Assembly (NCBI GenBank): GCA_018398765.1
Contig: JAHBMJ010001415.1
Location: 6,344-30,821 of the forward strand
Reading direction: 5' to 3'
Origin: Chromera velia
Lineage: Eukaryota > Sar > Chromeraceae
DNA length: 24,478 bases
This document shows positions 1 to 24,267 of this stretch, piece after piece. The translations under genes and the position numbers were made by a program. Position 1 is the first letter of the stretch; each line of letters begins with the position of its first letter. The notes under the pieces are model-generated. The model searched no databases, was not told the origin of the DNA, and saw only the letters and a list, made by a program, of their open reading frames with translations.

Positions 1-1103
1 CCTCCCTCCAGCCCTCTTACACAACGCCGTTGCATAAGGTATTTTGTATGAGCCCCCTAGCGTGGAACCAATCAGTCAATCAAGTAAAAACTAGCTAGAG
101 ATCAAAAGATTCATCATAATACGATGACATAAGATAAAGATGAATCTTAGATAATCTCATAACAAGTTCATTGACAACTCATGTATCTGGCCGTATACTT
201 AGACACGTGACTTGGATAGCACTCAGTCTATCTCTAATTCTCAACATTCCGCTCTCTCAGCGCTCTCCATTCATTGATGAACGCCCCCACTACCGCCCCC
301 AGGCCTCTTCACTTACTGCAAAGGACCGACAAGGCTGTCGGTGAATTCTAGCATGTAGAGCTTAAAGACAGGGAATCAAGCAAGGGGAGAGCACTTTGGA
401 AAAAGAACTGATCCTCTCCGCCAGAGTCGAAACTCCTCAAGAGCAGATAGAGAAGGAAAAAAAAAAAAAGCTGGAGACGATGCAAAACGGGCATGGGTAT
501 ATGTAGTGCAGCTTTCTTTCTTGCCCCTTCTTCTCTGGCCGAGAGATGAAAGGAGAAAGACAGAGAAAGCGCAACTATGCTTGTGGAGATCCGGACCAGT
601 CGAAGTGCGCAGACGTGTCCCCATCCTCCCCTACATGATCAATCTGCATCGAATGGTATGCGTAGTGGATCTGCAGGCAGGCAGGCAGAAAAGAATTGAA
701 GGAATCAAGCGACGGGAAGGGGGGATGAGTGGCATCGATCAGGAGAGTCCAACATGCGGGCCGGGATTTTCTTTTGGAACGTTTCTCTTCTCCTTCAGTT
801 CTCCTTCAGAAGCAAAGTGTTGCCCGGCTTTTTGAATTGAGCCTGAGTGACTTCTTTCTGAGATCGCAATCTTGCAGCCACTGCCGTTCTATTTTTTTCA
901 CTTCCATCCCCCTTTGTCTTCTCTTCTTCTCCGTGCCTGGGTTTCCTGACGGAAATCTACACCTCAAAGTTCCTGCCATCGTAATCCTGCTACAGAGGGA
1001 GGATTGCAGGATGGAATGCATGCAGCCCCCCCCCCCCTCCAATGCAGCCGACGCAGACAGATGGGATGATGAAGCCATCCCCTGCCGAAAGAGCAGAGAA
1101 GGA
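1..1103. other. Non-coding flank downstream of the Hcp-like gene
   Basis: No convincing gene was found here. The first 240 bases or so are AT-richer, with short repeats around ctagctagag and gataa, and could be the edge of an old mobile element. The rest is C/T-rich on the plus strand, with homopolymer runs such as the C tract at 1025-1036. Open frames on both strands have low-complexity translations and no domain signature. One TGCATGCA octamer lies at 1017-1024. The part next to 1104 may be 3' untranslated sequence of the minus-strand Hcp-like gene. Confidence 0.5.
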
Positions 1104-1757
1104 TCAGTGAACTGTTTGGAGGAAATCCGGGGTGACCTCCCCGATCTGTGAAGCGAGAGGAGAACAACAGATCTCCACTCAGCAAGCAGTGGAGTACAGT
1201 TTTCCTGCCGTCTGTCTGTCTGTCTGCCTGTCTGTTTTTCCTTTTGTGTCTGACTGTCTGTCCTCTTGTCTGTCCCTCTGCCTCTCTGTCTGTGTCTAGC
1301 TCTCTGTCTATCTCTCTCTCTTTCGGTCTGTGTTGCTTTGTCTGTCTGTCTGTCCGTCTGCCTGCTTTTCTGACCGACTGACGATCATGTTGGCCTCCCC
1401 CTCCACGTAGTTCATTTTGACATCGGCGAGCCGCCCCTCTCGGCAGTTCATCTGGATGAACTTGCCCTCTGTCCCGTCGCGTCTGTTGCTGAAGAATTTT
1501 ATCGTCGCGTTCACAGTGTGACCGCGCTCAAGGGCCTGCAGACAAACACGCACAATGGTTAAACCGCTTTTGCCAGTGTTCTCGGCAACGCTAAGGCAGA
1601 AGGACTGAATAAAAAAAGAGTAATAGAAGTCGCTCGCTGGACTTCACGTATACATCAAAAAAAGAGAGGCCACTTCATCATCTTTCTTGCTTGTGATTCT
1701 GACTTTTCGCTTGACGTGTGAAGAAGAGACCAACCACACTACACACACGAGCGAGCG

Positions 1758-1789
<32 letters not shown>

Positions 1790-2784
1790 CAGTAGTCAAG
1801 AGTTTGCTTGCCTGCATGAGCATGGGAGTGGCTGGTCCCTGCGGACAGTCGAATTCGATCCGGTCGTAGTGCGTGTGGCCCGAGACGCGTGCCCCCGTTC
1901 CGATGTCCCTCTTCAGACCGTACGAGATCCTTTTACACTGGATCCATTCCGCCCTGACATGCAGGGGGGGGCGGGAGGTTCACAACGAAAGAAAAATCAA
2001 GCAGGCACAAACTGGGAAGGACACATACACTGACGTATACAAAAAGGCGGGCGGGCACTCGAGCAAACAGGAATGAGAGCAGACAGAGAGGTAGGGAAGG
2101 ATTTCCAAAAGAGTGCTGAAACACGAACGCACAGAAAGCGATCCCTAGAAGGGAAAACCGGAAGGCAGGGGCGAACGGTTACAGACACGCGACAAATTTT
2201 TCAAAGCAAGGCCGGAAAATTACCTTGGAAGTTCCTCTCCTCCAATGTGGGTAATGTCCGTGTTGCCCATCACACTTTTGCCGTTGCTCTCAAAATGGAC
2301 GAAGGCGTAGGTGTTCCCTTTAGTAACTGCTGAGTTCAGAGAGTCTGAAGGCAGACAGAAACTTGAAGGCAGAATTTGATGTTGCGCAATGCCACTCTCA
2401 AGCCTTTGGTGTGTCCACATCTTTGGCCAGCGTGCAGATACAGGATCGTCACCAAATCTCAGGAAAGTAAGATATGTCAGGCAAGATAAACAACAGATAC
2501 ATGTTGTATCTCTGCGTCTTTGTGCTTCCAGCGTTGCTTGTTCCCACTGTAATACACCTCGAGAATATACAGTGCTACCTGTCGCTCCCATCTAAAGTCA
2601 TAAATGAGCAGGAAGGAGACGTTCGCTCGCGTGGCTCACCTGCAGTCTTGCTTTCCGACGAGGCCTCCGTGAGCGCTTCAGATCCACGAAGAGCCGTGCC
2701 GATTCGTGCTCCGGATCCGGACACCACCAGCGTCACCAAGCAAGCCACAAGAAGGAGACGAGAAAAGGAGGAAGCAGTCTGCAT
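1104..2784 (-). CDS. Secreted Hcp-like (type VI secretion tube family) protein, five exons
   Basis: Exons on the minus strand: 2784-2640, 2329-2224, 1953-1812, 1535-1383, 1145-1104; all phases join, giving about 195 residues. Residues 1-26 are a signal peptide (MQTASSF, then a Leu/Val core, then SGSGA). The mature part follows the Hcp fold pattern: a first strand AFVHFESNG, then WIQCKRISYGL, a G-rich turn with ARVSGHTHYDRIEF, the family hallmark ATPMLMQALERGHTV, then IKFFSNRRDGTEGKF and the ADVKM strand. Mature length, about 168, matches bacterial Hcp. In bacteria Hcp hexamers form the injected tube of type VI secretion; the role here is unknown. Intron 3 starts with GC (CAG then GCAAGC). The 13-residue last exon is tentative; without that splice the frame runs on to a stop at 1308. 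The family call rests on pattern, not on a search. Confidence 0.7.
1210..1370. repeat. Imperfect (CTGT)n microsatellite
   Basis: Long imperfect CTGT/CTCT array inside the last proposed intron of the Hcp-like gene. On the coding (minus) strand it is a purine-rich ACAG array. It produces several spurious open frames of Cys/Leu/Ser or Thr/Asp/Arg repeats. Confidence 0.9.
1749..1789. repeat. (GAGC)n followed by (GA)n microsatellite
   Basis: A short GAGC array runs directly into a GA dinucleotide array. It lies within intron 3 (the GC-AG intron) of the Hcp-like gene, about 20 bases past its GC donor on the minus strand. Confidence 0.9.
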
Positions 2785-3578
2785 GTTAAGATCAATACCT
2801 CAATTGGACGAGACGTTTCAAATTGATCACTTTAGAGAGTAGAGGATCCAGTGGGCGCCGCGTCGCCGTCTCCTTTTTGACCGTTGCTTGCGTAGCCTCC
2901 TGCGTCTCTAGGAAAGCGTGGATTGATGCATGAAAAGGGAATCATGGAGAAGCATGCACTCTCCATCAAGAAGCAGCTTGCCTTTGATCCTGATACATCC
3001 TGATGCCTTCTGATACCTTAGCACATCTTAGCACCATATAGCACCATTGAGGACCGCCATGGACCGCTTAATTCTCAAATCAGATATTGTTTCGTATATT
3101 GCATGTTGCCTGACCCCAGCTAGGCTCCGCGCCGAGTCCGCGCGCGGGCCGGGCCCGGCCATGCAGATGGGGCCCGGCGGCCGCATGCAGATCCGATTTT
3201 GAACAGATGGCATGGCCATGGCATGGCCCCACGAAATCGGCTCACATGCCACAATCATGCCACATGACCTGACAACACATACATACCCTCATGCACTATA
3301 TACGTGCTTGCGATCATGCAGTGGACTGTAAGCTGTAAACAGACACGCATTCAGTTCTTCAGATTCCCACGTGTACCCAATTGACAGTCCCTTGAGGCTT
3401 GAGCGAATTGGATTCCAATCTCAATTCTCTCTTTTTTGGTGACGGGCCGGACCAACTGCCCAAGCGGACCGGCGTGTTGCTTTGTGTTGCTCACGAACTA
3501 CTGTTGTGTGTTGCCCAAGCAACACCCTGCTTTCAAATTTTGCTGTTGCCTTCTGCTGCTCCGTCTACATTCGTTCAG
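2785..3578. promoter_or_regulatory. Shared upstream region of the divergent Hcp-like and ankyrin genes
   Basis: About 0.8 kb lie between the two start codons, which face away from each other, so both promoters must lie here or overlap. Visible structure: an inverted repeat ATGGAGA/TCTCCAT at 2944-2966; short direct repeats of tagcac at 3019-3046; a 14-base perfect GC palindrome at 3147-3160, flanked by two copies of catgcagat (3160-3168 and 3184-3192); and a catggccatg palindrome at 3211-3220. No TATA box stands out. The stretch 3399-3578 is open in the ankyrin frame but has no ATG, and it ends in ttcgttcag just before the ATG. It may be 5' untranslated sequence or end in a 3' splice site. 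Confidence 0.5.
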
Positions 3579-4805
3579 ATGGACGGGGCCGATGAAAAAA
3601 ATTCCCCTGAGCTCAGCGTCTCCAACGGTCTATTGCGACTGTCGCCGATGATCCTGCAGAACGTCCGCAGATTTCGCCCTATTGAGGCTGAGCTTTTGCG
3701 AGAACAGGTCGAAAAGTGTGCTGACGAGAGGGAGGGGCGGGCGGACCTGGTTCTTCTCCTCAGACTGGGTGCAGACATCAATGAGTTGGTGGAAGTGGCG
3801 GATAGATTTTTACCTGGGCACAAAATCTACAGAGAGACTGCTCTCCACCTCGCAGCCTCGATCGGCTCAGTCGACACAGTGTTGACTCTTCTGGAATACG
3901 GCGCCGCTGTTGAGAGAAGAGACTCAGCAGGCTGGTCAGCCCTCATTAGGGCATCCTGGAAAGGGCGCACACCAGTTGTGAAAGTCCTTCTGGAAGCAAA
4001 GGCAGCGATTGACGTTGTCACAGAGGACAAGCATTGGACTGCGTTGATGCAGGCCTCACACAAAGGACATCTGGATGTTGTGAGAGTCTTGACAGAGGCA
4101 GGGGCGGATCCGAACAAGTCTGCAAGAGACGGTGAGTATACTGCCCTGCTTCTCGCCTCCATGGCCGGGCATTCAAAAGTGGTGGAGATTCTCATTTCCG
4201 CGGGTGCAAATATGGAGGCCTGTGATGGGCATTATGGATCGACTCCATTAATATGGGCTTCTGACATAGGAAATGTTGAGGTGGTGAGGATACTCATCGA
4301 GGGAAAAGCAGACCCCAATGCCCAGTGCGGGATCGGTCAGACCGCTCTCATCAAAGCCTCAGAGAATGGACATACTGAGGTGGTCAGAGCGATTCTGACC
4401 GCATCGGAGGACGTGGATGTCGACGCTTGTGACCCAGATGGAACACGCGCCCTGATGCTGGCAGCAGGGATAGGGTACACCGACATTGTAAAGCTTTTGG
4501 TCGAGGCAAAGGCAAACCTGCATGCCGTCGACGCTTACAGAAAGACAGCGCTCGCTCGTGCTTGTGATCGTGGTCACGACGCAGTCGCTGAAATTCTCAG
4601 AGGCGCAGCTGCAAGTGCAGCAGCCTCCTCGGTCCTTCCAGCCCCGCCAGAGGACCTCAATCTGGTTACCAACACCAGACGGTGGCGTGACCGCTCCACC
4701 GATCCCGGTCGAGAGGGAATTTATCGCTACAGCACAGCCGGTCGTGTTTCGTCGGGGGACGCCCCGGAATCATTCGGAGACCTCGATCCCAGCTTCGGCG
4801 TCTAG
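3579..4805 (+). CDS. Ankyrin-repeat protein, intronless
   Basis: 408 residues from the ATG at 3579; the open frame extends upstream but without an ATG. About eight ankyrin repeats span residues 84-345, each with the TALxxAS..GHxxVVxxLL..GA core: TALHLAASIGSVDTV, SALIRASWKGRTPVV, TALMQASHKGHLDVV, TALLLASMAGHSKVV, TPLIWASDIGNVEVV, TALIKASENGHTEVV, RALMLAAGIGYTDIV, TALARACDRGHDAVA. A degenerate half repeat (LVLLLRLGADIN) lies near residue 58. There is no signal peptide or membrane segment, so a cytosolic or nuclear scaffold is likely. The roughly 65-residue tail is Ala/Ser/Pro- then Arg-rich and probably disordered. Ankyrin repeats bind proteins and reveal neither partner nor pathway. It is divergent from the Hcp-like gene. 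An upstream non-coding exon ending in the cag before the ATG is possible. Confidence 0.85.
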   Translation: MDGADEKNSPELSVSNGLLRLSPMILQNVRRFRPIEAELLREQVEKCADEREGRADLVLLLRLGADINELVEVADRFLPGHKIYRETALHLAASIGSVDTVLTLLEYGAAVERRDSAGWSALIRASWKGRTPVVKVLLEAKAAIDVVTEDKHWTALMQASHKGHLDVVRVLTEAGADPNKSARDGEYTALLLASMAGHSKVVEILISAGANMEACDGHYGSTPLIWASDIGNVEVVRILIEGKADPNAQCGIGQTALIKASENGHTEVVRAILTASEDVDVDACDPDGTRALMLAAGIGYTDIVKLLVEAKANLHAVDAYRKTALARACDRGHDAVAEILRGAAASAAASSVLPAPPEDLNLVTNTRRWRDRSTDPGREGIYRYSTAGRVSSGDAPESFGDLDPSFGV

Positions 4806-6771: not shown

Positions 6772-9700
6772 TATTTCTGTACTGACAGGGAAAGCAACAG
6801 GAATGGGCGCAGCGGGGAAGAGCTCCGAGAAGGGGCGCTTCGAATTCCCCTGAAGACTGAAGCGGTCGCCTTCTCCCTCCCCTCCAGCTTCTGGAGCCAC
6901 AACTTTCAGCGTTCCCCCACCGCACCCCGTCTCTGCTGCACTGCCGCTGCACGTCCTCTCAACAAGATCAGAGAGGAGGGCAGCAGGACTGGAGGACCTC
7001 AACAGCGTTGCAGTGGGAAACAGGGCAGCTTGGCAATCTGCGTGCGTCAACAAAGGGGAATCAAAGCACTGTTCTTCGGTCAAACGGTGCCCGTGAGGCG
7101 ACGACGAAATTCAAAAATGGATCTGGTATCAGTAAACTTTTGAGCATCGGAGCTTTCTTTTTCGTCCTCGATCACCCTCTGCGGACGCCCGATTTTCAAA
7201 GGATCAAACTACCATACAATAACAGAAAACGCAACACTTCTGAGAGCAACCATTACAATAGAAGCTCTGTCTGACATTATCACCCTCTTCACGGACCTCT
7301 GCAGAGGCCCCACTTCTGCGTCTCCTCCTCCTCGTACCAATTTACAAAGTCCTTCGTTGACACACGGGTCGAGCATCCCTGCACGCAGACACACAGGTAG
7401 ACAGACAGACAGAGTAGATCGCACGCAAGGTGGAAAACTCAGACGCCAGTCCGTTGTGATGTCCGTCTCTTGGTGTCTTCGAGAGAACAGGAAGGCGAGA
7501 AGGAAATGCAGGGGAAACTTTTGTCAACAGATGTTACCATTTTAATACAGAAAAGCCCCCCTTGCCCGCCGCCCCCAAATCCACACGCACAATAAGGAGA
7601 TGCCCACCTTATGTCTGCAGAGAGCCCCGAGACGTTCTCCTTGCGCCCCAGGCTTCTGAATACAGAAAGAAAGAAAGACAGACAGACAGACAGACAGAAA
7701 GAAAGAAAGAAAGAAAAGGAGACAACATGAAGACGGGCGGAAAATCTCCAGCGGAATGAGATAGGAAGCTGAAGAACGTCAACGCAAAGAAAGTCAGCAT
7801 CACTCGAAGAACAGCGCTAGCCAGACCCAGAAACACCCCCCCCGTATGGTTTACTGCGCACACATTATGCTCCAGACAAAAGCGGCTCAGCGGCATGATG
7901 CCATGCAGAGTCGTGGGAAAGCTAAAAACACAAAAGTCCTTTGACAGCTTGAATGGATCGCCCCCGTATTTTTCCACACAAAACAGCTACCTCATTTTTT
8001 CCAGAAGTCAACAGCGGCAGGGCTTCCAGCTTCTCCCCCTTCTGCTCGAGGATGTTCACCCTCATTGTGGCTCTGTCCCCTTCCCCTTCCGCAGAAACCC
8101 GCCCTCCTCTGCCCACCAGAACGACGTCATCAGAGGTTGCGTTTGCCCAGAAGGCAGAGTTTGGTTGACTGATGCCGGAAGCCTCCTGCCCCCTCTTTCT
8201 TCTTCTCTCAACTGGTGCAGCACAGCGACCAGTTGAGTGACTGTAGACCACCGGAATGTTTTGTGTGCAGACTGCAGGGGTGCAGCAGGAGAAGACGCAG
8301 ACCTGTCCCGCGTCCAGAGGCGCTCTGCAGACGCCTGAGTGCACTGCCCTTGAATGGAGACAGCGTCGGCACATCCCGGGGGAGAACGGAGAGGGCGAGA
8401 AATTCTGCATTGAAAAAAAATGCATAACGAAGCTGCAAGGTTTCTTTGCACCTCTGAAGATTCAAAAAGACAGTGAAGCTCTGTACATGTATGGATCAAC
8501 TCAAAGCGATAAACAAAAGTCACGGAAGGCGCCGGCACATGAGCGTGTACACTGTCAGTATTCCAGGAACCGGAGAAGGATAATTGAGTAGAACGCTACC
8601 AACCTCACAAACTGAAAAAGCTTCCCAATCGCTGGGCTCCAAACTCTCCCCGCAAGCATCTTCGTACTCTCTGGGCATTCTCTGCACATAAATTTCATCT
8701 TCTGTCTCCTGATGCTGCCCTCCTTCTTCTGAGAGGCCAAACCGTGGAAGAGCCGAGGCGGCAGGTGGCTGCTGGTTTGGGTCTTTCTTCTCCTTCTCCT
8801 TCTCAGTCGAGAAGAGCTCATCTGCAGCCCCGCGGAGGGCCTCTGTCAGGCCCACATTGCTTGCGCGCTTGTTTCCTTTTGTATGATCTGTCTTGCATTC
8901 CTTCTCTCCTTTGGTGTTCTTCGTGTCGTCTTCGTCTTCGGGGTTGCCTGGAAGGAGACGGAAGTCCATGTCTACCCGGAGGCTCTGGATTCTTTCTGCC
9001 AATTTGGGCATCGCCTCTCTCATCCAGGAGGCACCCTCCATTTCGGCCTGTAGAAGCGGCCTTCTCCGGGGAGACTGCGGCCGGTTGTCGAGGTGAACCC
9101 GTGGGGAGTGCCTCGAGGGCTTGGCATGGGGGGTTAAGATGGAGGCGATGGAAGCGCCAGCTTTTCTGACTGTGCTGAACGAGTTAGTGCACTTAGGCGG
9201 CTGACAGTCCGTTGGCTGATTAGTTTGGCAGGCAGGTCCGTGGCAGGCGGGTTGGGTGTTTATTGTACTGATAATTCTTTGACCTATTACAGATGCGTTG
9301 CAAGAGGGCGGATGTGGGGATGTGTGGGCGCACGGACATGAACATGGGGGGCAGCACGGGGAGGAACAGAGGGGAGGGCTGGGTTGCGGAGGGAAAGGAG
9401 GCCCGTTGACAAAAGGGAGGGGCCAGAGAAAAGGGATGACCCCAGGAGGAGAGGGCCAATATGGAGACTGGGTAAGGGGGCATTGGGGTTGGTGCGTCGG
9501 GGGGGTGGGGGGTTGGGGTGGGGGGGGTTCTTTTTCTGCTGTCGGTGTTTCGTCTTCAAAAGAGACCTTGCTGCCTTCTCGCTTTGAAGAGGTCATAATG
9601 CTAGAANGCTGCGAAAGAATTTCCCCGCTTGGGCGTCCCGGGAGCGTGCGATGGAGGAGGCGGCGGCGGGGCAGGTGGCGACCCTCCTCTGTCGGTTGAT

Positions 9701-11668
9701 AGAGGCGTTGCACCGTGCTGCCCTTCTGTCTCAATCATTGTCGCTGTTTTTTCCTCTTTTGGAGGAATGGTGGGAGGCGGGGGTGGTTGTCCGATAGAAT
9801 CAGCAGCCAGAAAGGAAACTGAAAGGGGTGTGTTGGGCCCAAGAGGTGTGTCTAGAGGTGCAGGGAGGGAGGGGGAAGGTTGGGGTTCGTCTTCATGAAC
9901 TTTGTCTTCCTCTCCTGTTTGATGCTGATGCTCGAGAGGATCACTTTGTGCGGTTTCGTGAGATGACTCCCCCGTGTACTTTTGTAAATGGTCTTCTTGT
10001 TCATTTTCTTTCCCCCCTTGTTGGTCGGAAAGAACCAGTGCATCTTCCTGGGTCTCCCTCTCTGCACCCTCCATGGGCTCTTTGTTGTCTTCATTCATAG
10101 ATTCTCTGACGTCTCCGCTGTTTCTGCGATTTTCGTCTTCCAATGGCCCCATTGAAATTGATTGTTCAGGGGAAGGAACAAGAAAAGTAGGGCCATTACT
10201 TTCGGATTCCCCGGACCACCCGGGCCCCCTATTTTGATCCTCATCCACAGGCAGAGTGGCCAACTGTACATCATCTGCTTCACCTCCCTCCCCTTGCCCA
10301 GAGGGATCTGCGTCTTCACCTCTTTCATCCTGAAATCCAGGCTGTTGATCCATCTCTATATGATTCACATCTCCGTCTTCTCCTTCCTCTAAAGTCTGTG
10401 GACCTTCTCCACCTGTCGCAGCAAGACTCTCCTGCAGGTGGGCCTCCGCCACGCTTGGCCGCACAAATGGTCTGAAGGCGCTTGCGAATCTGTCTCTTCC
10501 TTCAAGTGGGGCTGATGTGGGTTGCTCTTGCTCTTCCTCGTCTCCAGAGCGAATTTGAGGGGGCTCAACAAAGGGACTGAAATGGTCGGAAGGCCCTGTT
10601 TCTGTTCTTTTTGTATCACTGCTTAAACTTGCTCTCCTGGTCTCTGTTACCATCTCCACTCTATGAGTGCTGTCTCGCTTCTGTGCATTGTGCACAGGGA
10701 GGCTAGCAAAATTTTCATGTTTGGGATGACCGTTGGTTGTCCTATCGTCCTCTGGCAGTGAGGTGGCTCCTGTACCTCTAGACTCTCTGTCATCAGTCTG
10801 TGTGCTCTGGGAAGGGCAGAGGGTGGCTTGAGTCTGGGTGTCGACAGCCGGAGGACCCGTCTGCACTGCCTTTGAATTTGAATCACAGGGGGGTCTTTTG
10901 ACGATTCCTCTCTGTACAAGCAGGTCTTCCAACTCTGTGGGGAGAAGGTACAGAGAGGAGGGAGAAGGATTTGCACCCTCAGTCTTCAGACCCATTTCCC
11001 GCATATCCGTCAAAAGGGGCACAGGTTCGAAGGGACGTCTTCTCTTCGGGTGCATCCAATTCCTGTAGTGCCCACCCATCTCGGAGTCTTGTGGAATTTC
11101 TCCCGTGGACAAGTGCTGTAATCGAACGGCCGTAAGTCCGTTCTCCCTCATCCCCCCTCCTGGTTGCACAAGCTGCGAAGGAGGCGGTGAAACCTGTGGT
11201 CTGTGTTGACTTTGCGGCCCTGTATCGCTGTCTGACAGGAGGGGTTGGAATTCTCTCTGGCCTCCCTCAAGAGAGAGATAAAATTCGACAACCACCAGAA
11301 GACTGCCGTTGTTCTCTACCCTCCCCTTCCGCTCATTCCCCCACAACTCTAGATCTAAAGCCCATCTACCGCTGCGCCTTGGAAGAGGAAGCTCAACCTC
11401 ACCTGCAGCAATTGGATCCACACAGAATCGAAGCGCGAAAACCATTCAGAGAAAGAAGAGCCAAAGCGCAAGCCACTGGTTTTTGGCGAATGTGGAAAGA
11501 GAAATGCCACCTTCGTATTTGAGCACTCCATTTGCCTAGAGCCACGAGTGAATCGCATATCTTCGGAGGCAGAGAGGAGAGGAAAAGTGGCCGACCTAGA
11601 AAAAAATCCGCACCCCCAGGCTCAGCATCCCAAACCTCAAAGAGAATTGAACTCGAGTCCTCCGGTTG

Positions 11669-11764
<96 letters not shown>

Positions 11765-14157
11765 GTACAGAGGCATACATACAGAGATGCACATGCACAC
11801 AGCAACACAAGCTTACTCAGTGCGAGAGTTACTACGAGTGCGAGAGTACGAGTGAGTCTTTCTCATTCTGATCGTTCATTCCGCGGAGAAAACAACTCTG
11901 TAAATCTGTTTGAATTGTCAGTCACACTAACCGACCCATGCCTGTTCCTGAAACACTCAACAACTGACCCTTGCAAAGCAGAGATTGAAGGTCTTCTCCT
12001 CTCTCCACTCAGGACTCCTCAGACTCCGGGTTCTCCTCCCAGTGCGCCACAAAACGGTTTCACTTCCGGACACGGGCACGTGTACCTGCACAACCCATTT
12101 TTCATCACCAAGATTCCAAGCAAGCAAGAATCGTGAGTGGATCATTGAACAGTCTAAAGGAGAAATAGAGAAGCAGAGAAAAAAATGCTACTTCCACATT
12201 TCCTTTCAAGGGGCAAGAGAGCGCTAGACCCAGTGCCTTTTTCGGTTCCCTTTCAAAAAGTGGATGGAGTACCGCAAATTGGCTAGGGCTTGGGCTGTTT
12301 TGAACGATTTGACACACACAGGCAGACACTCTCACGTAAATGCCGAAGCGATTGAAACAGAGAGAGAAGCACAGACAAGCAAGAAAAACTCACCGCAACA
12401 AAATGGTCTGTAACTTTTGTCTCCTCTGCCACTGCAAGTCCGTTGGCGCACACAACAGAGAGACGCAAGGGCCCCCCCAGAGGAGGGGGGCAGCACCCAG
12501 AGGACTGGGGGCCTAGGCGGGCCTCTAGGTCGGCAGCGCAGGCGAACCTCTGCAGAACCTCCAGTCGTTGCTGGGCCTTCCTGCGAAGTTGACGATCTCG
12601 TGCAACGCTCTCTCTCTCAGCCTCTAGCAGTGCCCTTTCTCTCTCGAGAAGCACCTCTCTGCGGGTACCCTCTCTTTCCTTCAGATATCGACTCAATGCT
12701 GCTTGTTCAGCCATCAACTTTCTGGAGGACGTGACTTCACGAAGTTTTCTTTCCGCTTCCTCTGCTCTCTGCTTCCACTGAAGGGCCTCCTCTTTGCTCT
12801 CCCACTCGCCTTTTCTTGCAAGAGAACCAGACGGGCGCCTCGAGTCCCCTTGAATCGAGGTCCTTCTGTTCTTTTGCGTTTCTTTTTTTGATTCGCTTTT
12901 GTCTTTTTCATTTTGAGGACCTCCGAAGAGAGCAGAGAGAAACGCAACGCCCCCGTCTCCCTCCCCCTTTGCGCTTTTGTCAAAAAGGGCCGACACGTCT
13001 CCGTCTCGCACATCTTCTTGTAGTCCTCCTGGGAACGTGGGGGGGCCTGCTGAAGGCTTGGGAGTCTCTTCGTTGACTGCCTCTGAGATGAGGGCCTCTA
13101 GGTCGACAGGGGAGGAGGTGGGACGTGCGTCTCCTTGAGGGTTTTGGGGGGGGGCAGAGGGGGGACTGGGGGGCGATCTGGTGACATCGGCAAGGATCGC
13201 ATCAAGATCGAGAGGACTGTCTTTCTTCCTGGTTGGCTCTGCAGTTTGTTTGGGGCTATCGGTCTTTTCTTCTTTGGGTGATAGCCTTGACCCATCAGGG
13301 GGTGCACCTAATTGATCCATGAGGGTGGACATCAGATCGAAAGGGGACCCCTGGGTTTCCTCATTTGAAGGCGGACTGCTTTTTCTCTGGCTGTGCAGAG
13401 CTTCATCGGATGAGGCTGCCTTTCCTTCCGATTTCCCCTTCTTCTTCCCTTTCCCCTTTTCTTTCTTCTTTTGAGGTGCAGGTTGAGACTCGGGCAATGA
13501 AATTCCCGAAGCAGAAAGACCCAGATTCGATGCCTCTGCATTGACTTGGCTGTCGGCTTGTCTTACAGCTTCCGCTTCTGGGGATGGTGTAGCAGGCGCT
13601 TGCTGTTTCTCTGAGGGGAGAAGGAAAAAATCGGACCCCAGGATTGACGTGGGTGGTCTGGGTGAGGGTCCTCTGTCAGTGGCAACTGGAGTCGCTCCTG
13701 AGAGAAAACTTTCTGCAGCACTTATCTGACTTCTAAACGTTGAATCTCCATCTCTTCCCTCCCTCCTGACGCCGATGCGACGCTTGCTTTTGGCAGCGGG
13801 CAGGATCAGCATATTGGGGGGTCTCTCTTTCTCCTTTTCACTTCCTCCTGAAGCCTTCTCCCTTTCCTTCTTGCGTTTTGGTTTCGCTTTCGGTTTCGCC
13901 TCTGCAGTGCTTTTTTCCTTATCTCCATCCCCTGGAACACCAAAAAGGGCCGCAAAGAAGTCAGGCGCTGCAGCCTGTTCCCCCGCAGGCTTTTCAGTGT
14001 CCTCTGGTGCGACTGTCTGACCGTGATTCTGGGAAGCCCTCCTCGAGGGCTCTGCATCCTTCCCGTCTGTTGCCTTCTCTTCAGGAGGGGGTGCAAATGC
14101 CCCAAAGAACGCAGCGAACGGATTTACCTCCTCCCCGCCACCTTTGCCCTCTGCCAT
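5618..14157 (-). CDS. Large C2-domain protein with coiled coil and long disordered regions, about nine exons
   Basis: Proposed minus-strand exons: 14157-12394, 12085-11969, 11668-11596, 11402-8604, 8404-7991, 7655-7608, 7378-7297, 7037-6787, 6370-5618. All junction phases agree once the N at 9607 is dropped, giving about 2,100 residues. An in-frame TAA directly precedes the ATG. Residues 1-450 are disordered and Pro/Ser/Lys-rich; about 452-545 is a charged coiled coil. A C2 domain, a membrane- or lipid-binding fold often needing calcium, spans about 563-695: LRLSVVCANGLAVAEE, TDHFVA, WREEKTFNLCF, ILFEVWDAE, DFFLGEVELPL. Its four segments come from four exons, which supports the splicing. The rest is acidic, then proline-rich. 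The first four exons are well supported; 8404-6787 rests on phase agreement and TGCAG acceptors. An alternative fifth exon starts at 8271, with exon 4 ending at 8600. The last exon's end is unsettled. No named homologue is recognised. Confidence 0.65.
6737..6768. repeat. (CT)n microsatellite
   Basis: Pure CT array in the proposed intron between 6787 and 6370 of the C2-domain gene. On the coding strand it is a GA array just after the GTCAGT donor. Confidence 0.9.
7663..7717. repeat. (GAAA)n(GACA)n(GAAA)n microsatellite
   Basis: Tetranucleotide array changing from GAAA to GACA and back. It lies in an intron of the C2-domain gene, directly upstream (on the coding strand, a TTTC/TGTC pyrimidine tract) of the acceptor for the 48-base exon 7655-7608. 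It may serve as that intron's polypyrimidine tract. Confidence 0.85.
9607..9607. other. Ambiguous base that breaks the C2 gene's frame
   Basis: The only N in the window. With the N counted, the minus-strand frame reads GCA GCN TTC TAG and stops at 9601. With the N dropped it reads GCA GCT TCT AGC ATT ATG and stays open for another kilobase, with the same proline-rich composition. The N is most likely a spurious extra position from assembly or polishing, not a real stop. Confidence 0.8.
11671..11764. repeat. Compound (CA)n(GA)n microsatellite at a splice acceptor
   Basis: CA array about 11672-11742 followed by GA about 11743-11764. On the coding (minus) strand it reads (CT)n then (GT)n, ends in gtgcag, and the exon starts at 11668. 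The array thus forms the whole pyrimidine-rich 3' end of intron 2 of the C2-domain gene. One frame across it is open but encodes only Cys-Val repeats. Confidence 0.9.
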
Positions 14158-22982: not shown

Positions 22983-23933
22983 TCACCGTTTCTGTGCACA
23001 TGCGACGGTTGTCGTGTAGGGGTACGGAAACGTATTTTGGTCTCCGTCTGGCACCCCCTCCTCGTCGAGCATCTGCATGGCCTCCTTCCTCAACGCTTCC
23101 TGCTTCTCGGCACTCAGACAGGCCACATAGCTGCGAGAGAGCACGCGTTGCCACAAAAGACTTCTGTTCGCTTCCAGGGCAAACGAGGCACTCACCTTTT
23201 CATCCAACGGCAGAAACAGCTCAGAAGCTGTCTCTGTCTGCCACACATTCCTCCACCGCCCCTGACGGAATTGGGGCGCGTCTCCCTCCAGAGGTTCGTG
23301 CAGAGCCCTCAGCCTCTTCACCCACTGAGCCCTATCTGCGTCCTCCAAATTCCAAATCAAGTACAGCCACCCCCCCTTCTTGCACACGCGTGCCAGTTCT
23401 CGAAGTACCGTCTCGTCAGCGAACCAATGGAAGGCCTGACCGACCAAAACCACATCGAACGCTTCGGACTCAAAGGGAAGAGACCGGGCCGAAGCATCAA
23501 GAATAGGAATGTCGGGGAACGAGGCCTCAAAGACCTTCCGCATTTCAACGGAGGGCTCCACGGCGGTGATGTCGAAATCCGCACCCTTTCGGGTTTTGTA
23601 ATCCACCAATGCACGTGTCAGCTTTCCCGTGCCACTGGCAATCTCCAAGATCTTCTGGGGTTTTATTTTATCAAGAAGGGAGTCGACGACGTCTTGGGGG
23701 TAGCCTGGCCTGGCACGATCGTATCTGTCTGCGTCTGCGTCGAACCCCTTGGAGGAGACGGGGTGTACGGAAGAGGAGACAGCAGCGGTGCAGGAGAAAG
23801 GCATCCTGACGTTTTGGATTGCAGAACTCCGGAGCAAAAAAGCAGAAGACCCCCTGAGAAAGTGACAGAACGAAAGGAAAGCAAATATCACGGGAAAAGC
23901 CGGAAAGGGGGAGGCAAAGGGTGATGCGCTCAT
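22983..23933 (-). CDS. Class I SAM-dependent methyltransferase with a probable plastid-targeting leader, intronless
   Basis: 316 residues in one exon. It matches the Methyltransf_11-type small-molecule methyltransferases. An FDADADRYDRARPGYP signature (residues 64-79), typical of the trans-aconitate/embryo-abundant-like group, precedes motif I LEIASGTGK (96-104), which binds SAM. The acidic post-I strand ITAVEPS follows (122-128), then motif II FDVVLVGQAFHWF (159-171), where the AFHWF block is characteristic. VCKKGGWLYLIW (183-194) is motif III. The substrate cannot be told. Residues 1-62 precede the catalytic domain: a hydrophobic stretch FPVIFAFLSFCHFL (13-26) looks like a signal peptide, followed by SSAF (29-32) and a Ser/Arg-rich acid-free stretch. 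This is the SP plus Phe-led transit peptide arrangement of complex red plastids. Convergent with ALS. Confidence 0.85.
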   Translation of the reverse strand: MSASPFASPFPAFPVIFAFLSFCHFLRGSSAFLLRSSAIQNVRMPFSCTAAVSSSVHPVSSKGFDADADRYDRARPGYPQDVVDSLLDKIKPQKILEIASGTGKLTRALVDYKTRKGADFDITAVEPSVEMRKVFEASFPDIPILDASARSLPFESEAFDVVLVGQAFHWFADETVLRELARVCKKGGWLYLIWNLEDADRAQWVKRLRALHEPLEGDAPQFRQGRWRNVWQTETASELFLPLDEKVSASFALEANRSLLWQRVLSRSYVACLSAEKQEALRKEAMQMLDEEGVPDGDQNTFPYPYTTTVACAQKR

Positions 23934-24267
23934 CCGCAGATACGTATATCGCGATCGTGGTAGACGGAGAGAGAGTGAAGCGTCAGATCGAAAGCAGAAG
24001 CAAATACCGGAAACTCAGTACGTTTTGTGAGGCGGCAAAAGATGAAATTGCGACTGCCGATTGAGCGTCTTTCTGAAAGTGTCTTAATTTGAGGACTCAA
24101 ACTGCTTGCGTCTGCATGGAGCGATGTAGGTCGCTAGGTCGACGTCCTGTACTTTGCCTTGGTTTGCCGAAGTACGTTTGCCATGCATGGCATGCAGCAC
24201 TCATATGCACTCTTTTCGATCATGCATGCATCGATCGATCTGCATGCATGCATGGCTTGCATGCATG

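Follow-up and report, generated by a model that had tools for sequence, protein, structure and literature searches.

An intron-bearing, Hcp-like gene pair of Chromera velia with putative secretion signals

Computational analysis of a stretch of Chromera velia DNA (24,478 nucleotides, hereafter the window) establishes the structure of an intron-bearing nuclear gene, the match of its product to the type VI secretion (T6SS) tube protein Hcp, a hydrophobic N-terminus, a paralogue elsewhere in the genome and a signature of purifying selection that maintains both copies. From these results we infer transfer from bacteria, secretion and absence of the contractile machine, and the gene pair probably encodes secreted, stand-alone Hcp-fold proteins: a bacterial gene would have been acquired by the alga, gained introns and a signal, been duplicated and been kept without the machine.

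Gene structure and the intron-matched paralogue

On the minus strand, at 2784-575, the gene's five exons join in phase into a product of 218 residues consisting of a putative signal peptide, a linker of about 30 residues and an Hcp-like domain that begins at about residue 57 and runs to the C-terminus. The splice sites of this gene and of its paralogue were picked by the analyst from the genomic sequence alone. The features are as follows.

Exon 1, 2640..2784, minus strand: start codon, then a putative signal peptide of roughly residues 1-26 (approximately 2784-2707), then the first part of the linker; in-phase join
Exon 2, 2224..2344, minus strand: linker and first strand of the Hcp-like domain (YAFVHFESNGKSV); in-phase join
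Exon 3, 1812..1953, minus strand: WIQCKRISYGL, the loop RDIGTGARVSG and TPMLMQ, followed by a GC-AG intron; within the PF05638 match
Intron 3, 1536..1811, minus strand: GC-AG, 276 bases; the equivalent intron of the paralogue also starts with gc
Exon 4, 1383..1535, minus strand: from ALERGHTVNATIKFF to GEANMI; holds the sole N-glycosylation sequon, NAT, at residue 145
Intron 4, 671..1382, minus strand: 712 bases; contains a CTGT-type simple repeat and the fifth exon of the sequence-only reading
Exon 5 (corrected), 575..670, minus strand: IHYAYHSMQIDHVGEDGDTSAHFDWSGSPQA and the stop codon; last strands of the domain; found via the paralogue

The four introns measure 295, 270, 276 and 712 bases, with the donors gtgagc, gtaatt, gcaagc and gtcagt (three beginning GT and one GC) and acceptors that all end in cag. 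A sequence-only reading of the window had proposed five in-phase exons, a gene end at 1104 and a product of 195 residues. The motifs that it quoted are present, and its first four exons exist and join in phase, but the fifth exon is not near 1104. Comparison of the C-terminus of the paralogue with the window (tblastn) locates it at 670-587 (68% identity over 28 residues, E 1.4e-12; genome-wide E 1.1e-8), preceded by a good acceptor and closed by a stop at 575, giving an exon at 670-575, a gene span of 575-2784 and the product of 218 residues. The corrected exon 5 raised the Pfam T6SS_HCP score from 24.7 to 27.0 bits, with the match now extending to the end of the profile, and the TIGR03344 score from 24.4 to 27.4 bits. 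When scored with a profile built from 29 bacterial Hcps, the corrected exon gave 38.4 bits, the former exon 38.8 and omission of any fifth exon 39.1; since this score is not raised, exon 5 rests chiefly on the paralogue. Rfam and tRNA scans of the window returned no match.

A search for paralogues, which the sequence-only reading had suggested, found one on contig C3962, the only further copy upheld genome-wide, and the mature products of the two genes are 75% identical. The paralogue has six exons and encodes 199 residues, with MSSSFSLKTWGCFALFFFGMLNLAQA followed at once by the Hcp domain. Four intron positions and their phases are common to both copies, one extra intron splits the paralogue's putative signal peptide, and in both genes intron 3 opens with GC and the last intron with gtcagt. 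Over 162 aligned codons, the copies have 122 identical residues (dN 0.21, dS 1.94) and 32, 26 and 83 differences at the first, second and third codon positions, the third-position excess being present in each of exons 2-5; because the differences fall mostly at third positions, both look like maintained protein-coding genes. No DNA similarity was detected between the two loci (blastn) outside exons 3 and 4, which identifies them as old paralogues and not alleles. Conservation between the copies peaks in exon 3, where 43 of 47 residues are identical and 22 codon changes are synonymous. Identity amounts to 26 of 38 residues in exon 2, in which 18 of the 37 base changes are at third positions, to 35 of 51 aligned residues in exon 4 and, in residue terms, to 21 of 32 aligned codons in exon 5 (the stop counted as one).

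The copies differ in the length of the loop that precedes the last strands: the paralogue's exon at 3637-3452, compared with window 1535-1383, has 11 more residues just before GEANMI. The genome search for further copies listed eight rows, six of which are exons of the two genes; the other two loci, on contigs C2412 (E 0.16) and C1724 (E 3.25), failed a recheck with the joint profile, the best frame reaching E 0.34 at one and no frame being listed at the other.

Relationship to bacterial Hcp proteins

The Hcp family call of the sequence-only reading is borne out by the Pfam profile T6SS_HCP (PF05638), which the product matches at 27.0 bits, over the curated cut-off of 23.5 (E 5.9e-6; profile positions 16-129 of 129). 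With phmmer, the Hcp structure 5urw (E 2.4e-7) was the sole match at E <=10 among 177635 PDB sequences, and a profile of the two copies also matched it among solved structures (E 1.5e-7); over the 111 matched residues, 5urw has 100% identity with a Myxococcus xanthus protein. A profile-profile comparison against eight bacterial Hcps gave a probability of 97.2% (E 3.2e-11) over residues 7-121 at about 29% identity. The TssD subfamily model TIGR03344 scored 27.4 bits (E 2.7e-6, the better of the two copies reaching E 2.5e-9), below its NCBIfam cut-off of 58.9, and PF17642 TssD gave 12.7 bits (E 0.12), below its cut-off of 25.8. The best of 1000 shuffles of the domain scored 5.7 bits against the profile of 29 bacterial Hcps, compared with 38.4 for the real sequence. 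Local alignments to our own bacterial sets (HMMER and hhalign) end around residue 122; the C-terminal remainder is aligned to bacterial Hcps by MAFFT and by the Pfam and NCBIfam matches.

The algal proteins resemble Hcp/TssD (PF05638; 5urw) in a significant match over most of the domain, with the conserved blocks in the same order, but differ in their putative signal peptide, their introns and the apparent lack of a T6SS gene cluster, as well as in a 5-residue insert before R27 and altered 42-43 and 119-133 regions. Placed by eye on a model of the M. xanthus Hcp built from 15 bacterial sequences (pLDDT 88), five of the six indel sites lie in or beside loops of the predicted structure and one deletion (residues 42-43) lies inside the predicted strand 40-44, the alignment keeping the order of elements.

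Among the 19 columns that are invariant in the eight bacterial Hcps, four of which (G26, V40, R44 and T105) are not fully so over 29 bacterial rows with one incomplete row dropped, nine are kept in both algal copies (G26, R27, I31, R44, G53, P71, L77, G98 and W159) and ten are changed in both (M1, V40, R55, K64, D67, R91, T105, E135, I144 and D157). The changes include six of the eight charged invariant positions (R55, K64, D67, R91, E135 and D157), which makes a T6SS-type tube unlikely. Retention of core glycine, proline and hydrophobic positions with loss of charged ones suggests that the fold was retained and that the tube contacts may have been given up.

Origin and genomic setting

Gene transfer from a bacterium would be the most economical reading; the ground for it is that the machine to which Hcp belongs is bacterial, and not the tree. 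In a tree of 35 rows, in which sampling was uneven (Pseudomonadota represented by four plasmid-borne proteins only, and no other eukaryotes), the two algal proteins group together at the end of a branch of length 4.05, and the tree resolves no sister group and indicates no donor. The nearest sampled relatives are Myxococcus-type Hcps, the best reaching 38.5 bits among 195 genomes of that phylum. A profile of the two algal sequences was run against the genomes of three phyla: it matched 35 of 195 for that of Myxococcus (E 1e-4), 2 of 297 for that of a Thermodesulfobacteriota record (1e-5) and 0 of 294 for that of a Planctomycetales record (1e-5). Searched against plasmids, the paralogue matched 11 records at E <=10 (best 3e-3), six of them annotated TssD or Hcp. 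No close bacterial, phage, plasmid or viral relative turned up in the collections searched. No paper title in the open-licence literature was found to report Hcp in a eukaryote, and prior annotation is possible.

The family search of the genome (178 Mb, 4040 contigs) returned 58 light-harvesting matches, which identify the host as an alga, a photosynthetic eukaryote, and agree with the sequence-only reading of an intron-bearing algal gene. The stretches neighbouring the gene appear cellular in character and unlike T6SS genes, encoding ankyrin repeats, the N-domain of a thiamine-pyrophosphate (TPP) enzyme and a methyltransferase, and four of the seven scanned have no family. No T6SS genes were found in the window stretches scanned, and neither the sheath VipB/TssC (PF05943) nor the spike VgrG (PF05954) had a match in the genome, in a search of a kind that misses weak intron-split matches and that likewise missed this gene with PF05638. 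The contractile machine is likely absent from the alga, to judge from these searches.

Other coding stretches of the window are as follows.

3396-4805, plus strand: uninterrupted frame with many ankyrin repeats, adjoining the Hcp-like gene
9601-11445 and 12283-14157, both minus strand: two frames of >600 residues, charged- and proline-rich by eye, with no Pfam match; one ambiguous base at 9607
From 15441, plus strand: N-terminal domain of a thiamine-pyrophosphate enzyme, acetolactate-synthase-like by eye, continuing in later frames as if intron-split
22983-24014, minus strand: class I methyltransferase domain (Methyltransf_11, UbiE-like)

Two other accounts of the sequence were weighed against transfer. 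Contaminating bacterial DNA, or a recently inserted stretch whose open frames are accidental, would fit a family that is otherwise bacterial in the collections searched, but is scarcely conceivable and was rejected, as the frame is cut by four introns whose phases are conserved at two loci on different contigs, the neighbours include the ankyrin-repeat, TPP-enzyme and methyltransferase coding stretches, and the best match in 195 genomes of the phylum of Myxococcus stands at 38.5 bits, no close bacterial relative having emerged. Hcp and phage tail tubes have a common fold, and with a match as remote as about 29% identity the domain might derive from the tail tube of a phage instead of a T6SS, or an old eukaryotic or viral beta-barrel family might have converged on an Hcp-like sequence. 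An RNA-virus barrel with inconsistent structural matches to an Hcp3, as reported in PMC11796362, would suit such convergence. Either is very unlikely, given that PHROGs yielded one match only (function unknown, E 0.083), that no phage record matched and no IMG/VR contig was confirmed, as against significant matches to three independent Hcp models or sequences.

Targeting and possible function

The N-terminus of the window copy contains the hydrophobic stretch LLLVACLVTLVV, with a 12-residue hydropathy peak of 3.28 at residues 10-21 compared with values of <=0.48 beyond residue 40, a profile that resembles a signal peptide, as the sequence-only reading had claimed; its cleavage site was judged by eye. 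The paralogue has its own hydrophobic N-terminus, which ends in AQA and is followed immediately by the Hcp domain. Both copies have the sequon NAT, at a strand where most bacterial rows have D or E instead of asparagine. In the most likely reading the product passes into the secretory pathway and would act extracellularly, at the cell surface or in a vacuole.

The same N-terminus could be a bipartite plastid-targeting leader, with the protein working inside the plastid instead of the extracellular space; the host is photosynthetic, and in the window copy the hydrophobic stretch is separated from the domain by about 30 residues rich in S, T and A. This is unlikely, as the paralogue lacks such a stretch and its domain starts right after AQA. 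The Hcp-like domain might also still assemble into tubes, as part of an ejected or tubular secretory structure such as an extrusome, organelles that are presumably present in this alga. The predicted secretion signal would suit such a role, as would the strong conservation between the copies (43 of 47 residues) of exon 3, which spans the loop joining strands 40-44 and 51-57 as well as the first part of the helix. Loss of six of the eight charged residues invariant in the sampled bacterial Hcps argues against continued tube assembly, as does the lack of a tube partner in the (insensitive) genome search, and makes it improbable. A rather doubtful, broader proposal is that the alga uses a secreted Hcp ring or tube, independently of any sheath, as a weapon, decoy or carrier outside the cell or in an ejected organelle; if true, this would be the first case of an injection-tube protein used on its own by a eukaryote.

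For the preferred reading, a secreted Hcp-fold protein acting alone, the following course is envisaged. An ancestor of the alga would have taken an Hcp gene from a bacterium; the gene would have gained introns and a secretion signal and then been duplicated, both copies coming under purifying selection; and the product would enter the secretory pathway and work as an Hcp-fold protein without a contractile machine. Bacterial Hcp rings bind small effectors or cargo in their lumen, and a pair of conserved copies that look secreted, with neither sheath nor spike, suggests a binder or ring that acts alone. By way of this cargo-binding capacity, a small ring or monomer might bind bacterial (or algal) peptides or proteins, the mechanism that we favour by analogy. 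With two conserved, intron-bearing, signal-carrying copies, a role of the Hcp fold without sheath, spike or membrane complex becomes directly testable with small soluble proteins.

Eukaryotes have borrowed enzymes injected by type VI systems; borrowing of the tube subunit itself, if true, would be of a different kind. The dae genes are type VI amidase effectors that were taken over by animals and protists and kept as secreted proteins. They resemble the algal case in that a bacterial type VI part was retained by a eukaryote as a secreted protein, but they encode enzymes delivered by the machine, whereas the algal protein corresponds to the machine's tube subunit. The NlpC/P60 hydrolases of Trichomonas, laterally acquired bacterial genes whose products are reported in PMC6299479 to act on bacteria, are likewise bacterial genes retained by a protist, but they encode enzymes, in contrast to the structural protein of the alga.
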